DNA from: Clostridiales bacterium
Lineage (GTDB): Bacteria; Bacillota; Clostridia; Lachnospirales; WQUN01
Reading direction: 5' to 3'
Assembly (NCBI GenBank): GCA_031287685.1
Contig: JAITSQ010000023.1
Location: forward strand, 1 to 64,000
Length of the DNA: 64,000 nt
Shown: positions 20,015 to 55,996 of the stretch, piece by piece
Layout: every line of letters begins with the position of its first letter
Numbering within the stretch: position 1 is the first letter of the stretch
Position numbers and translations under genes: made by a program
The notes under the pieces: generated by a model
The model's database searches: none
Told to the model about the DNA's origin: nothing
Seen by the model: only the letters and a program-made list of their open reading frames with translations

Positions 20015-20145
20015 TATAGCAATTCCGTTTGATATTGGCGTTATTCCGCGCCGAAAACGCGTTGGAGCCGGTGTTTTTTCGGGCCTGCTTCCGCCCGAAA
20101 AAGCCCCCTCCTTGAACAACGCCAATCAAACATGAAATTGCTCTA
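20015..20145. mobile_element. MITE-like palindromic element upstream of spoIVB (family E)
   Basis: The ends TATAGCAATT and AATTGCTCTA are inverted copies, extended by GTTTGATATTGGCGTT on the left and AACGCCAATCAAAC on the right. Inside is a family B hairpin (CGGTGTTTTTTCGGGC with GCCCGAAAAAGCCCCC). It is 131 bp long, carries no gene, and its right end overlaps an ATG (20132) in frame with spoIVB. Confidence 0.7.
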
Positions 20146-21441: not shown

Positions 21442-21888
21442 CGACAAGAAGGGGGCTTTCATTTGTCTAAACTTGTTTTAGACAAATGAAAACACCGAAC
21501 AAGGCCGCCCGGTTTTAACCCGGAGACGCGTTTGGGGTTTCGCGCGGGCGCGAGCAAATGCGGGGAGGCGCAAAACCCGCGTCGAAGGGTTCTTAACCCG
21601 GAGACGCGTTTGGGGTTTCGGGCGGCTTTAGGCGCGAACACCGCGTCGAAGGGTTCTTAACCCGGAGACGCGTTTAGGTTTTGTGCGGCTTTAGGCACAA
21701 AACCTGCGTCGAAGGGTTCTTAACCCGGAGACGCGTTTAGGTTTTGTGCGGCTTTAGGCACAAAACCTGCGTCGAAGGGCCAGCGACCGGAGGTTGCGAG
21801 AGGGCATTAGGCCCGAAAAAACGCCGATCAAGAAGGCGGCTTTTTCGGGCGGCATTAGGCCCGAAAAAACGCCGATCAGGCTTCGTCA
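21442..21888. repeat. Array of palindromic repeats between spoIVB and recO
   Basis: This gene-free stretch holds, in order: one family A hairpin (21446-21503; arms CATTTGTCTAAA and TTTAGACAAATG between AAGGGGGCTTT and AAAACACCGA); four tandem family C units of about 62-80 bp (21511-21591, 21592-21655, 21656-21718, 21719-21780), each framed by AACCCGGAGACGCGTTT and GCGTCGAAGGG with a variable inner palindrome, the last two nearly identical; a family D-like piece (about 21778-21809); and family B hairpins (GGCGGCTTTTTCGGGC with GCCCGAAAAAACGCC, to 21888). Confidence 0.85.
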
Positions 21889-23557: not shown

Positions 23558-24039
23558 AGATTCTGCGGCGCGTTATGGAAAAGAGCGCCCTGCCCGGCGA
23601 GCTGGCGCGGACCCTGCCGGATTGCGCGAAAGCCCTCGTTTTCGCCGCGACGCTTGGGCACGCCGCCGACGCGGCCCTGCGCTCCGCTTTCGCCAAAAGC
23701 GCGTCGGAGGCTGTCGAGCTTGACTCGCGGCTGAACCTGCGGATAAGCCGCGCCTGCTCTCAAATCCAGGAAGAAGCGGCGGCCGGCCTCGGCGGGGCCT
23801 CCCCGGTCTTTTTCCCCGGGGGGGAGCTGCCGCTGGCCGCGCAAAGCGCTATCCTGAGTTTGCTTAACGCCCGGAGGCGCGGGGTTTACGAAAACGAGGC
23901 GCATATGCTCCTGCCGTCGAAAACTCTCACCGGCGTAATAGCGCTTGGCGTTTCCGGAGGGGCCCGCGCGCCGGCCTGCGGATTCCGCTGCGCGGAGTGC
24001 GCAAAGCCCTGCTCCGCGAAAATTACGGAGGAATTATAG
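23536..24039 (+). CDS. Stand-alone methionine synthase reactivation-domain protein
   Basis: The 167-residue protein resembles the vitamin B12-dependent methionine synthase activation domain, which in MetH of many bacteria is the C-terminal AdoMet-binding module. It has LPSKTLTGVIALGVS near residue 125 and a cysteine-rich end (CGFRCAECAKPC). The MetH of this window (31022-33391) stops after its cobalamin domain, so this protein probably does the reactivation in trans. It overlaps metF by 22 bases, a coupled pair. The family call is by length, context and motif; weaker than that of metF. Confidence 0.7.
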   Translation: MSDEYPVKILRRVMEKSALPGELARTLPDCAKALVFAATLGHAADAALRSAFAKSASEAVELDSRLNLRISRACSQIQEEAAAGLGGASPVFFPGGELPLAAQSAILSLLNARRRGVYENEAHMLLPSKTLTGVIALGVSGGARAPACGFRCAECAKPCSAKITEEL

Positions 24040-24114: not shown

Positions 24115-24226
24115 CAATAAGGGGGCTTTGGTTTGTCTAAATCTTTTTAGACAAACCAAAACACCGAGTAAGAAGGGGGCTTTCATTTGTCTAAGCTTGC
24201 TTTAGGCAAATGAAAACACCGAGCAA
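24115..24226. repeat. Two tandem family A palindromic repeats upstream of prfB
   Basis: Copy one (24117-24170) has arms GGTTTGTCTAAA/TTTAGACAAACC; copy two (24171-24226) has arms CATTTGTCTAA/TTAGGCAAATG. Both sit between AAGGGGGCTTT and AAAACACCGAG. The 24040-24115 stretch before them holds a CGCGGG/CCCGCG stem and no gene. Confidence 0.85.
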
Positions 24227-24268: not shown

Positions 24269-25376
24269 ATGCTTGAGCTTGAACAGCTGAAACAAAGCCT
24301 GAAGCAGTACGAAAGCAAGCTGGACGAATTAAGGGATTCACTTTGACTTACCCGCCGTCAAAAAGAAATTAGACGAACTGACGGAGGCCACCGCCGCGCC
24401 GGAGTTCTGGAACGGGGCGGCCGGGAATCAGTCCGTGCTGCAGGAAATCAAGGCTCTGCAGAACAAGCTGGATTCCTTCGGCGCGCTTAGGAACGAGTAC
24501 GACGACCTTATGGTGCTTGCGGAGCTTGGCCTGGAGGAAAACGACGAGTCCGTCTATCCCGAGGCGAAGGCGCTGGCGGCGGACTTCGAGCGGGACTTTG
24601 AAAAGTTTAAGCTCGCCAAGCTGCTGGACGGGGAGTTTGACCGAAGCAACGCCATACTTACGCTCCATTCCGGCGCCGGCGGCACGGAATCGTGCGACTG
24701 GGCGCTTATGCTTTTCCGAATGTACAGCCGCTGGGCGGAGAAAAACGGCTATTCCGCGCAAATAATAGATATGCTCGACGGGGACGAAGCGGGCGTTAAA
24801 TCCGTCACTATGCAGATAAACGGCGAAAACGCCTTCGGCTACCTCAAGAGCGAAAAAGGAGTGCACCGGCTCGTGCGCATTTCCCCGTTTGACTCCTCCG
24901 GCAGGAGGCACACTTCCTTCGCTTCTTGCGAGGTTATGCCCGAAATAGACGACAGCGTAGAGTTTGAAATCGACGAGGACGACCTGCGCGTAGACACCTA
25001 CCGCTCCAGCGGCAAGGGCGGGCAGCACGTCAACAAGACCGACTCCGCCATACGCATCACTCATATCCCTACCGGGGCCGTGGCCGCCTGTCAGAGCGAA
25101 CGATCTCAGCTGCAGAACAAAAACACCGCGATGCGTATGCTCAAATCCAAACTTTACGACATGAAAATGCAGGAACAGCGCGAAAAACTGCGGGACATCC
25201 GGGGCGAAGTCAAGGACATAGCCTGGGGCAGCCAGATCCGCTCGTATGTCTTTCACCCCTACACCCTCGTAAAAGACCACCGCACCTCCTGCGAAATGGG
25301 CAACATCACCGCCGTTATGGACGGCGAGCTGGAGCCGTTTATGAACGCCTATCTGGGGTGGGTTCACAATGCGTGA
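24269..25376 (+). CDS. prfB: Peptide chain release factor 2, with programmed +1 frameshift
   Basis: RF2 ends translation at UGA and UAA. The first 25 codons (24269-24343, MLELEQLKQSLK…) end at CTT TGA C (24341-24347), the classic prfB frameshift site, with AAGGGA (24331-24336) as the internal Shine-Dalgarno-like element. Reading continues in the +1 frame from GAC at 24345. The joined protein of about 368 residues has the RF2-type stop-reading motif SPF (RISPFDSSG), and the GGQ tripeptide (GKGGQHVNK) that triggers release. It overlaps the following synthase gene by eight bases. When RF2 is scarce the shift is favoured, so the gene controls itself. Confidence 0.93.
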
Positions 25377-29715: not shown

Positions 29716-31032
29716 TCATCCCTTACTTAATATATACGCGCGCAAGGTTCCGACAAGCCGCAGGGAGCCGGCGACGACGATAACCCCGTCTTCGGGCCGA
29801 AGCGCCTCCGCGCGCTCATACGCGGCCCGCGGAGAGGCTTCGCAAAAAGCCGCCTTCTTGCTCGGCGTTTTTTCGGCGCTACTGCCCGCCAAAAAAGCCG
29901 CCTTCTTGCTCACTGCGGCCCGAAGCTCCTCCGGAGGCAGGCCGCGCTCCTCGTCCGCCTTGGTGAAAATAACGGCGTCACTCGCGCCGGCCAAGGTTTG
30001 GGCGATTTCTTTATACGCCTTGCCCCGCAGGATTCCCGCGACGGCGACGACCGGCCGGCCAAGCGCGGCGAGGGTTTCCGCCAGGGCGCGCGCGCCGTCC
30101 GGGTTATGCGCCCCGTCCAGCAGGACGTTTTTCGTTATAAACTCGCAGCGCCCCGGGTGGGCCGCCTTTGCTATCGCCTCGCGCGCGCCCTCCGCAGTGA
30201 GCCTCAGGCCGAGCCGCCGCAGAACCTCCGCCGCGAGCAGCGCCCCGCGCAGGTTCCACTCCTGATAAAGCCCGAAAAGATTCGTCCGCAGGCCCCGGTA
30301 AGCGTATCCCTCCCCCGAAACGTCAAGGCTCATCAGAAACCCCGGCTCCCGGTTTGGGTAAAAGGAAGCGCGGGAATCCGCTTGGTCGTAATAAAAAGGG
30401 GCGCTTTTCTCTCTCGCTGTTTCCTTAATTAAATTATATACCTTTTCGGGGTTCCTGTGCAATACTATCGGGCAATTTTCTTTTATTATCCCGGCTTTTT
30501 CGGCGGCGATTTTTTCGATTGCGCCGCCCAAAAGGTCCGTATGGTCCAGGGAAACGGAGGTTATGACCGAAAGGAGCGGGCGCGGGACGACGTTCGTGGC
30601 GTCGAGCCGGCCGCCTATGCCCGTTTCGAGCGCGACAAAATCCGCGCGGGACTCATAAAAATAAGCGAACGCCGCCACCGTCAGAAGCTCAAAAAACGAC
30701 AGCGGGCTGTCAAGAAAGGACGACGCTTCGGCGGCCCGCGTCAGCAAGCCCGCGAAAGCCTCGTCTGATATTTCCTCGCCGTTTAAGCTCAGCCGCTCGT
30801 TCACGCGGCGCAGGTGCGGCGAGGTGAACGCCCCGACGGAATATCCCGCCGTTTTCAGTATTTCCGAAAGAACGCGGCAGACCGTGCCCTTGCCGTTCGT
30901 CCCCGCGACGTGAATCACGCGGAGCTTCTCCTCCGGGGAGCCGAATTTTTTAAGGACGGCGCGAAGCTCGTCAAAGCTATGCTTGTTTGGCGGGAGGCTG
31001 AGCAGGTAGGAGACGGCTTCGTCATAGCCCAT
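29716..31032 (-). CDS. folC: Folylpolyglutamate synthase / dihydrofolate synthase with repeat-derived insertion
   Basis: FolC adds glutamate to folates (and to dihydropteroate in the bifunctional form), keeping them in the cell. The 438-residue protein has the P-loop GTNGKGTVCRVL (residues 44-55), GAFTSPHLRRVNERL, ALETGIGGRLDATN and DGAHNPDGARALAETL, as in the Mur ligase-like fold. Odd: near the C-terminus, about residues 372-396 (29844-29912), a palindromic repeat is inserted in frame and gives KKAAFLAGSSAEKTPSKKAAF, shown here as AAFLAGSSAEKTPSKK. It overlaps metH by 11 bases, so both are one operon. Confidence 0.92.
   Translation of the reverse strand: MGYDEAVSYLLSLPPNKHSFDELRAVLKKFGSPEEKLRVIHVAGTNGKGTVCRVLSEILKTAGYSVGAFTSPHLRRVNERLSLNGEEISDEAFAGLLTRAAEASSFLDSPLSFFELLTVAAFAYFYESRADFVALETGIGGRLDATNVVPRPLLSVITSVSLDHTDLLGGAIEKIAAEKAGIIKENCPIVLHRNPEKVYNLIKETAREKSAPFYYDQADSRASFYPNREPGFLMSLDVSGEGYAYRGLRTNLFGLYQEWNLRGALLAAEVLRRLGLRLTAEGAREAIAKAAHPGRCEFITKNVLLDGAHNPDGARALAETLAALGRPVVAVAGILRGKAYKEIAQTLAGASDAVIFTKADEERGLPPEELRAAVSKKAAFLAGSSAEKTPSKKAAFCEASPRAAYERAEALRPEDGVIVVAGSLRLVGTLRAYILSKG
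29844..29912. repeat. Family B palindromic repeat inside folC
   Basis: AAAAAGCCGCCTTCTTGCTC (29849-29868) recurs as AAAAAAGCCGCCTTCTTGCT (29891-29910), flanking CGGCGTTTTTTCGGCG. CGGCGTTTTTTCGGCG and CCGCCAAAAAAGCCGCC can pair. The open frame is kept. Confidence 0.75.
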
Positions 31033-33435: not shown

Positions 33436-33610
33436 CGGCTTGCTCGGTGTTTTCATTTGCCTAAAGCAAGCTTAGACAAATGAAAGCCCCCTTCTTGCCC
33501 GGTGTTTTGGTTTGTCTAAAAGGGTTTAGACAAACCGAAGCCCACTTCTTGCTCGGTGTTTGTGATTGTCTAAAAAACATTTAGACAATCCGAAGCCCCC
33601 TTCTTACTCG
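33436..33610. repeat. Three tandem family A repeats between metH and secA
   Basis: In leftward orientation the copies have arms CATTTGTCTAA/TTAGGCAAATG (33439-33496, same as the copy at 24171), GGTTTGTCTAAA/TTTAGACAAACC (33497-33550) and GATTGTCTAAA/TTTAGACAATC (33551-33607). The last one begins within the secA stop codon. Confidence 0.85.
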
Positions 33611-36225: not shown

Positions 36226-36340
36226 GTTGCTCGGTGTTTGAGGTCGTCTAAAAGGATTTAGACAACCTCAAGCCCCCTCCTTGCCCGGTGTTTTGGATTG
36301 TCTAAAAGGATTTAGAAAATCCAAAGCCTCCTCCTTGCTC
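36226..36340. repeat. Two tandem family A repeats upstream of secA
   Basis: Arms AGGTCGTCTAAA/TTTAGACAACCT (36227-36283) and GGATTGTCTAAA/TTTAGAAAATCC (36283-36338), each framed by CTCGGTGTTT or CCCGGTGTTTT and AAGCCCCCTCCTTG or a close variant. Confidence 0.82.
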
Positions 36341-45321: not shown

Positions 45322-45518
45322 TATAGCAATTTTACAAAACGCTGACCGCCCGAAAAAACACTGGTTTTAAGCCGTTTTTCGCGAAGGAGGGGGCTTTAAT
45401 TTGTCTAAATTTGTTTTAGACAAATTAAAACACCGAGCAACGCCGGCAGTCAAGGAGGGGGCTTTGAGCTTCTCTTGGAAGCTCAAAACACCGAGCCGCG
45501 ATTTTGAAAATTGCTATA
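45322..45518. mobile_element. MITE-like palindromic element upstream of spoVT (family E)
   Basis: 197 bp bounded by TATAGCAATTTTACAAAACG and CGATTTTGAAAATTGCTATA. Inside lie the right part of a family B hairpin (CCCGAAAAAACACTGG) and two family A hairpins: arms AATTTGTCTAAA/TTTAGACAAATT (about 45384-45440), and GAGCTTCTC/GGAAGCTC (about 45452-45497). It has no gene. The rest of the 45136-45563 gap holds the xylB promoter and AT-rich sequence. Confidence 0.8.
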
Positions 45519-47866: not shown

Positions 47867-48016
47867 TATAGCAATTTTCAAAATCGTGGTCTGGCGCGGA
47901 GCGGAAAACCGGCGGCAAGAAGGCGGCTTTTTCGGGCGGCATTAGGCCCGAAAAAACACCGGCTTCAAGCCGTTTTTCGCGAACGTCGGCAGTCAACGTT
48001 TTGTAAAATTGCTGCA
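47867..48016. mobile_element. MITE-like palindromic element upstream of yraN (family E)
   Basis: 150 bp bounded by TATAGCAATTTTCAAAATCG and CGTTTTGTAAAATTGCTGCA, with a complete family B hairpin inside (AAGGCGGCTTTTTCGGGC at 47918-47935 with GCCCGAAAAAACACCGG) and AGCCGTTTTTCGCGAACG near the right end. Same size and plan as the copy at 55750. Confidence 0.8.
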
Positions 48017-52418: not shown

Positions 52419-52473
52419 AAAGGGCGTTTGACCTGTCTGAATCTTTTCGGACGGCTCAAAACGCCGGGCAGAA
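52419..52473. repeat. Variant palindromic repeat before gpsA
   Basis: Frame GGGCGTTTGA … CTCAAAACGCCG with inner GTCTGAA/TTCGGAC arms. This has the same plan as families A and B with other arm sequences. Confidence 0.55.
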
Positions 52474-55749: not shown

Positions 55750-55899
55750 TATAGCAATTTTACAAAACGTTGATTGGCGCGGAGCGGAAAATCGGCGGCA
55801 AGAAGGCGGCTTTTTCGGGCGGTATTAGGCCCGAAAAAGCACCGATTTTAAGCCGTTTTTCGCGAACGTCGGCAGTCCACGATTTTGAAAATTGCGACA
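55750..55899. mobile_element. MITE-like palindromic element between promoter and tRNA-Leu (family E)
   Basis: 150 bp bounded by TATAGCAATTTTACAAAACG and CGATTTTGAAAATTGCGACA, containing a full family B hairpin (AAGGCGGCTTTTTCGGGC with GCCCGAAAAAGCACCG). It is very close to the copy at 47867, including the GGCGCGGAGCGGAAAA left segment and the AGCCGTTTTTCGCGAACGTC right segment. Confidence 0.82.
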
Positions 55900-55912: not shown

Positions 55913-55996
55913 GCGCTCGTGGCGGAATTGGCATACGCGTTAGACTAAGGATCTAATGGGAGTTTTCCCGTGCAGGTTCAAGTCCTGTCGAGCGCA
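55913..55996 (+). tRNA. tRNA-Leu(AAG), CCA not encoded
   Basis: Acceptor GCGCTCG/CGAGCGC, D-arm GCGGAATTGGCATACGC, anticodon arm TTAGA-CTAAGGA-TCTAA with anticodon AAG (reads CUU), a long variable arm TGGGAGTTTTCCCG and T-arm GCAGGTTCAAGTCCTGT. The discriminator A is followed by TAAA, so CCA is added after transcription, unlike the tRNA-Ser of this window. Confidence 0.93.

Follow-up and report, generated by a model that had tools for sequence, protein, structure and literature searches.

Two hairpins lie side by side (24120-24221) in the interval separating prfB, which starts near 24270, from a gene that ends at 24039. Both belong to a dispersed repeat, family A, whose arms change from copy to copy and still pair. 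The question raised by the locus is whether pairing is maintained by selection for the fold or by a process templating one arm from the other, the two explanations put forward in an earlier note on this DNA. The repeat was monitored in the window, i.e. the whole 64-kb stretch analyzed, and in the 1.88 Mb genome hosting it (one assembled genome, 37 contigs, 97% complete; G000). Part of the counts refer to a 755 kb sample, or 40% of the genome, targeted rather than random. The presence of a PolC-type polymerase would point to a Bacillota-like lineage; no 16S was found in the assembly.

Structure and abundance of the repeat

The hairpins are real, and found where the earlier note placed them. The sequence at 24121-24165 reads GGGGGCTTT-GGTTTGTCTAAATCTTTTTAGACAAACC-AAAACACC, the sequence at 24175-24220 GGGGGCTTT-CATTTGTCTAAGCTTGCTTTAGGCAAATG-AAAACACC, with predicted folds of -21.9 and -17.9 kcal/mol, respectively. 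The first copy (24120..24166) is the best match (76.5 bits) to the covariance model of subfamily S1. Rfam covariance models run against the window gave no gathering-level match except for two tRNAs, and nothing above sub-threshold matches at the hairpin site. Copies located in the window are listed in Table 1.

Table 1. Copies of the repeat in the 64-kb window
Feature	Position	Strand	Remarks
Copy 1 of the pair	24120..24166	+	subfamily S1, arm GGTTTGTCTAA
Junction between tandem copies	24167..24173	+	AGTAAGA, 7 nt (RGC/T plus AAGA)
Copy 2 of the pair, in tandem	24174..24221	+	S1, arm CATTTGTCTAA; 7 nt beyond copy 1
Copy	20069..20109	-	subfamily S3, TTTTTCGGGC...GCCCGAAAAA
Copy	21450..21497	+	S1
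Copy	21834..21874	+	S3, outer stem GGCG/CGCC
Copy	29863..29903	-	S3, in frame within folC (29716-31032), encodes KAAFLAGSSAEKTP
Copy	33445..33492	-	S1, member of three-copy tandem array
Copy	33500..33546	-	S1, member of three-copy tandem array
Copy	33554..33601	-	S1, outer arm bases unmatched; 2 nt past the TAA of the upstream gene
Copy	36232..36278	-	S1, AGGTTGTC / GACGACCT, one G.T pair
Copy	36286..36332	-	S1
Copy	45388..45435	+	S1
Copy	45456..45493	+	subfamily S4, GAGCTTC...GAAGCTC
Copy	47921..47961	+	S3
Degenerate copy	52421..52466	+	predicted gpsA N-terminus; may precede the true gpsA start
Copy	55804..55844	+	S3

The repeated unit, AGGNGG-CTT-[arm-loop-arm']-AAA-CRCCGRGC, is about 42-55 bp long, and has constant ends (AGGNGGCTT...AAACRCCGRGC) enclosing a variable stem. 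Extended to the flanks (YAAGR before, GCAAG after), the consensus is [C/T]AAG[A/G]-AGG-N-GG-C-TT-(arm-loop-arm')-AA-A-C-R-CCG-R-GC-AAG. In the predicted fold an outer stem, GGNG/CRCC, is followed by an asymmetric internal loop (GC on the 5' side, A on the 3' side) and by the variable inner stem. The outer frame, described in the note as fixed, is not entirely so; variation is seen at base 3 of GGNG and at base 2 of CRCC. This frame is common to three main subfamilies, S1 (whose arms end in TGTCTAA), S3 (TTTTTCGG...) and S4 (GAGCTTC...). The third outer pair is never standard in S1 (0 of 46 copies paired), being mostly G.A, and is often C-G or T-A in S3. Over all copies, C faces G 23 times, vs. 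about 8 expected from the margins.

Matches to the frame GGGGGCTTT...AAACACC number seven in the window, where none is expected from shuffles, and 144 genome-wide; the reversed pattern is never found. A looser frame, AAGRAGGNGGCTT...AAACRCCG, is matched 273 times in the genome, and never in reversed form, which sets the size of the family to at least 273 copies. All 198 exact frames found in the 755 kb sample enclose a hairpin, though no folding filter was applied. Neighbouring copies form co-oriented tandems. Their spacing is 7 nt at 49 and 6 nt at 7 of 56 close junctions, and no inverted pair was found at the same spacing. Adjoining copies often belong to different subfamilies.

Other repeats were noticed along the way. 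Tandem units of 65-77 bp (CGCGTCGAAGGGTTCTTAACCCGGAGACGCGTTTAGGTTTTGTGCGGCTTTAGGCACAAAACCT), each itself a hairpin, fill positions 21511-21779 of the window, in an intergenic island also recurring elsewhere in the genome. Half-hairpins (GAGAGGGCATTAG...CRCCG) occur at 21799-21826 of the window, and at L055 6365, L057 522, L061 9822 and L062 9745; they are S3 elements, the loop of which seemingly holds a longer insert, so that some elements are composites a few hundred bases long. Repeats resembling MITEs and bounded by inverted ends (GCAATTCC.TGTTTGAC ... GTCAAACGGAATTGCTATA) are found at L068 17071-17159, L057 6775-6863 and L070 6320-6407 (flanks). They often hold family A hairpins mid-repeat, and a second kind ends in GCGATTTTGAAAATTGCTATA. 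The window also encodes a tRNA-Leu (55913-55996) whose anticodon, AAG, is uncommon among bacteria, and prfB (24270-24360), just downstream of the hairpin pair, has its programmed frameshift in the classical form (CTT TGA C following a AAGGGATT stretch).

Covariation of the arms

Forty-six distinct S1 copies were aligned and compared with 500 shuffles, in which 3' letters were dealt out, and with slid registers. Cells changed on both sides are 77, vs. 22.1 +/- 4.2 in the shuffled sets, a value reached in none of the 500. Standard pairs make up 90.5% of the cells, vs. 82.2% in the shuffles and at most 53% when the register is slid. The covariation score is 0.278 vs. 0.117 in the shuffles, and far lower at every slid register. 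Arms therefore pair despite sequence change, as the note had observed.

The claim that nearly all changes in one arm are matched in the other was too strong. Minimum spanning trees built on distinct arm pairs give 132 one-sided changes, about twice the number of changes affecting the two sides of one pair (62, with about 20 expected by coincidence); pairing of the arms is thus preserved, though changes are not matched throughout. Unmatched outer bases are carried by the copy at 33554-33601. One of the arms quoted in the note, AGGTCGTCTAA, does exist as the reverse complement of the right arm of the 36232-36278 copy, but the left arm is AGGTTGTCTAA, one pair being G.T.

Departures from Watson-Crick pairing in 168 distinct stems are G.T in 58 instances, A.C in 26, other in 53. 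The excess of G.T over A.C (p=6e-4) fits arms that drift while being selected to pair on one strand, and G.T intermediates are seen in the transition-variable columns of the 46 S1 copies. Substitutions at frame positions, which are small in number, show a weaker strand bias (13 C>T and 6 A>G vs. 17 G>A). The level of pairing is similar in antisense and sense copies (0.973 vs. 0.965). Selection for the folded form is supported by covariation exceeding the controls, by the presence of a hairpin in every exact frame, and by a homologue in another genus, in which the outer pair is different and yet formed (see below).

Location and orientation of the copies

Copies reside mostly outside called genes, but all gene contexts are represented, including divergent intergenes and coding sequences. 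Clusters located between co-directional genes are sense in 53 instances and antisense in 21 (p=2.6e-4). Replication-strand bias was discarded as the cause of the orientation, which showed no association with GC skew (28 vs. 25). Twelve of the 53 sense clusters begin at most 12 nt past the upstream stop codon. In copies starting 2 nt past the stop, the TAA is part of the TAAGA of the left flank, as in the 33554..33601 copy, where the stop of the upstream gene sits within the flank.

Genes were called by a simple script requiring open frames, so that in-gene counts are biased towards in-frame copies and are to be taken as indicative: sites with intact frames are sense in 11 cases and antisense in one, and unit length is divisible by three in 15 of 15 in-gene copies, vs. 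150 of 200 elsewhere. Stop codons do not explain the orientation of in-gene copies, since open phases are equally frequent in the two directions (218 sense, 230 antisense).

In-frame copies were found in the genes encoding PolC and FolC, and in about ten others. polC (L065 11023-15447) offers the clearest example, with a pair of 48-bp units encoding T-EAAFSAGISAEKTPS-T-EAAFLGGSKREKTPS, which correspond to query residues 274-306; in the alignment with Geobacillus PolC (3F2B), the insert falls exactly between the residues matching positions 960 and 962. The tetranucleotide ACGG occurs before, between and after the two units. The folC copy found in the window is hosted in a variable loop. A TPR-like gene product (L071 6929 and upstream) contains two tandem copies, one partial and one full (GQGQLKTPSTEGALGGQGQLKTPS).

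With respect to the terminal inverted repeats and target site duplication of MITEs moved by DDE transposases, pairing between the ends of the unit (GGNGGCTT / AAACRCC) is imperfect, and the flanks hint at a direct repeat of 4 bp. The tetranucleotide at the left of the copies and the one three bases past CRCCG are correlated above shuffles (z=3.3), only at the register giving a 4-bp direct repeat (position -1 vs. fourth base, z=3.1), but the signal is statistically weak, since copies favour AAGA/AAGG flanks in any case. The threefold ACGG of polC and the threefold AAGC of L071 fit a duplicated target; tandem amplification could give the same result.

Related repeats in other genomes

The S1 covariance model was searched against this genome and 60 relatives. 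It finds 102 matches in G000, 11 (E down to 1.3e-14) in G016, from genus g17 of the same family, and one strong match in G028, from genus g16, a third genus of the family. Most of the 60 relatives have no match, and the few weak matches found elsewhere look like chance. The covariance model was needed to detect homologues, since exact-frame searches of relatives gave chance matches only; the looser frame was missing in 40 relatives, and 16 single matches obtained by scanning other contigs, all from unrelated organisms, were taken as chance.

G016 copies share with G000 copies the CTT/AAAC frame, the flanks and the 7-nt tandem spacing. The outer stem varies: GGGG/CACC or GGCG/CGCC in G000, GGAG/CTCC in G016 (third pair A-T in the copies read), GGTG/CGCC in G028 (third pair T.G). 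Copy number differs sharply between genera. Given the homologues in g17 and g16, family A predates this genome, and expanded here.

Search for a mobilising enzyme

The note had proposed to look for an associated single-strand transposase. No Y1 transposase (PF01797, IS200/RAYT type) was detected in G000 or in G016 (70% complete), in a search positive in 16 of 41 genomes (G028 was outside this set), and in 5 of 14 controls. The Y2 transposase of IS91, a candidate in view of the preference of IS91 for CAAG/GAAC targets, was not found either, but control genomes gave no match as well. No DDE_3 (IS630/Tc1) transposase was found. Reverse transcriptase was rejected as a candidate mobiliser, as the lone RVT_1 match corresponds to a DRT4-type defence enzyme, encoded in contig 36 (L072 600-2225) next to a rubrerythrin gene. 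Tyrosine recombinases were also set aside, none of the seven PF00589 matches being linked to the repeat.

Origin and maintenance of the repeats

The data are best explained, and in our opinion probably, by a high-copy, non-autonomous family of mobile palindromes of REP/RPE type, the folded form of which is under selection. According to this model the unit would be placed at AAGA/AAGG-like targets, leaving the tetranucleotide on both sides, and tandem copies would consequently be separated by RGC plus AAGA. A putative enzyme acting in trans might recognise the fixed frame and the hairpin, either as single strand or as RNA. Inner arms would be free to drift, via G.T intermediates, provided they pair. 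Copies would persist where little harm is done, just past stop codons, between genes or beside older copies, and within genes when length and phase leave the frame open. A mobile palindrome constrained in its fold would account for fixed ends, drifting but paired arms, dispersal, tandem self-insertion, in-gene insertions and a patchy distribution. The repeat with its frame, the covariation, the in-frame polC insertion, the sense bias and the homologues in other genera were observed directly, while mobility, the strand recognised, target duplication and an enzyme acting in trans are inferred from them. A more specific version, in which the repeats make up a class of mobile hairpins recognised by their fold, inserting with transcription and duplicating 4 bp, by means of an enzyme outside the HUH (Y1/Y2) group, possibly via RNA or a transcription-exposed strand, is rather improbable.

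Hairpins might instead act in mRNA, by protecting 3' ends or through intercistronic processing or attenuation, being selected in the transcript, with spread as a secondary matter. The sense bias between co-directional genes and within genes, and starts lying right after stop codons, speak for such a role, as does the excess of G.T over A.C in sense copies (33:12), to be compared with 6:5 in antisense copies. Direction bias and G.T tolerance do suggest that folding takes place in the sense strand, whether as RNA or in an exposed single-stranded state. Yet antisense copies are as well paired as sense ones, which would make mobility, rather than mRNA function, the main constraint; this, the occurrence in every gene context, the sharp variation in copy number by genus and the lack of matches in most relatives leave an mRNA role possible but unlikely. 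Quasi-palindrome correction, i.e. template switching at replication copying one arm onto the other with no selection, would explain why many pairs differ by two-sided transversions (A-T, T-A, G-C and C-G at columns 13/36) which no single wobble intermediate can connect. Such templating, the other mechanism contemplated in the note, is not needed, and we deem it very unlikely: one-sided changes persist, perfect re-copying would leave no excess of G.T over A.C, and in 46 of 46 S1 copies neither the fixed internal loop nor the third outer position, which is unpaired, has been corrected.

Two further explanations call on known systems. Copies could form a classical REP family moved by a RAYT (Y1, IS200/IS605-like) transposase, lost or absent from the assembly. 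General anatomy and evolution are those of REPs and REPINs, compensatory arm changes included (PMC3116915, PMC2817692), and Y1 genes do occur in many of the genomes searched. This origin is nonetheless quite improbable, given the lack of Y1 genes in a nearly complete genome and in the repeat-carrying G016, ends devoid of GTAG or CGTC, tandem pairs which are direct and not inverted, and probable 4-bp direct repeats at the ends. IS200/605 transposition is not known to make 4-bp direct repeats. In-gene copies could also be skipped by ribosomes as translational bypass elements, similar to mitochondrial byps, an idea prompted by the hairpins that interrupt essential genes within their coding sequence. 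Bypass, however, does not require an element to keep the frame, as all 15 in-gene copies do while remaining open, and copies are mostly intergenic, so that bypass appears extremely unlikely.

Comparison with known palindromic repeats

Structure-recognised hairpins with variable arms, few fixed bases and some extrahelical ones are also found in integron attC sites. Family A resembles them in the hairpin, the variable arms and the few fixed bases, but by inspection its frame lacks the RYYYAAC/GTTRRRY core, and copies are dispersed rather than arranged in a cassette array.

Compensatory arm changes between conserved ends are already on record for REP-type repeats (PMC3116915, PMC2817692, PMC3733652), which are placed after genes and can supply stop codons (PMC3733652). 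Like REPs and REPINs, family A is a short palindrome present in hundreds of copies, mostly intergenic and after genes. It differs because it lacks the GTAG (or GTGG) head, being flanked by YAAGR and GCAAG, and because no Y1/RAYT gene was found in its genome. Moreover, copies form co-oriented arrays at 7-nt spacing, whereas REPINs are inverted pairs; direct repeats of 4 bp seem to mark the ends, and arm variation is much wider.

Palindromes found in frame within genes, many of them involved in replication or repair, and having no known transposase, have been described (PMC3733652; PMC2229807). CGTC-tagged REPs, including Rickettsia RPE-4 and RPE-6, are similarly palindromic, with no dedicated transposase known, and have in-frame in-gene copies, their targets including genes for replication and repair (PMC3733652). 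Family A has neither a CGTC/TGTC/CCTC end nor a CCA tail, has an internal loop within its fixed frame, GGNGGCTT/AAACRCC, belongs to a different lineage, and is commonly clustered, clusters being rare among CGTC-tagged REPs. RPE-1 and Wolbachia WPE are likewise mobile palindromes encoding in-frame peptides in conserved proteins (PMC2229807), but RPEs measure 105-146 bp (PMC2229807), vs. 42-55 bp here, and are set apart by length and lineage. In Rickettsia the identity of repeats is reported to decay over time (PMC6649704); here, in contrast, no exact frame has lost its pairing.

Family A thus differs from described repeats in its frame, in the lack of a GTAG or CGTC tag and of a RAYT, in co-oriented tandems, in the breadth of arm variation and in the direction bias. 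It provides a clear, statistically tested instance of a palindromic family in which sequence drifts while the fold and both ends are retained, outside the GTAG and CGTC REP superfamilies, in a PolC-bearing lineage where no RAYT gene was found. It also shows that essential genes, that of the replicative polymerase included, can carry RPE-like insertions of in-frame peptides outside Rickettsia. Its hundreds of copies, the division into several subfamilies, the occurrence in two relatives and the marked direction bias make the spread of transposase-less palindromes testable.
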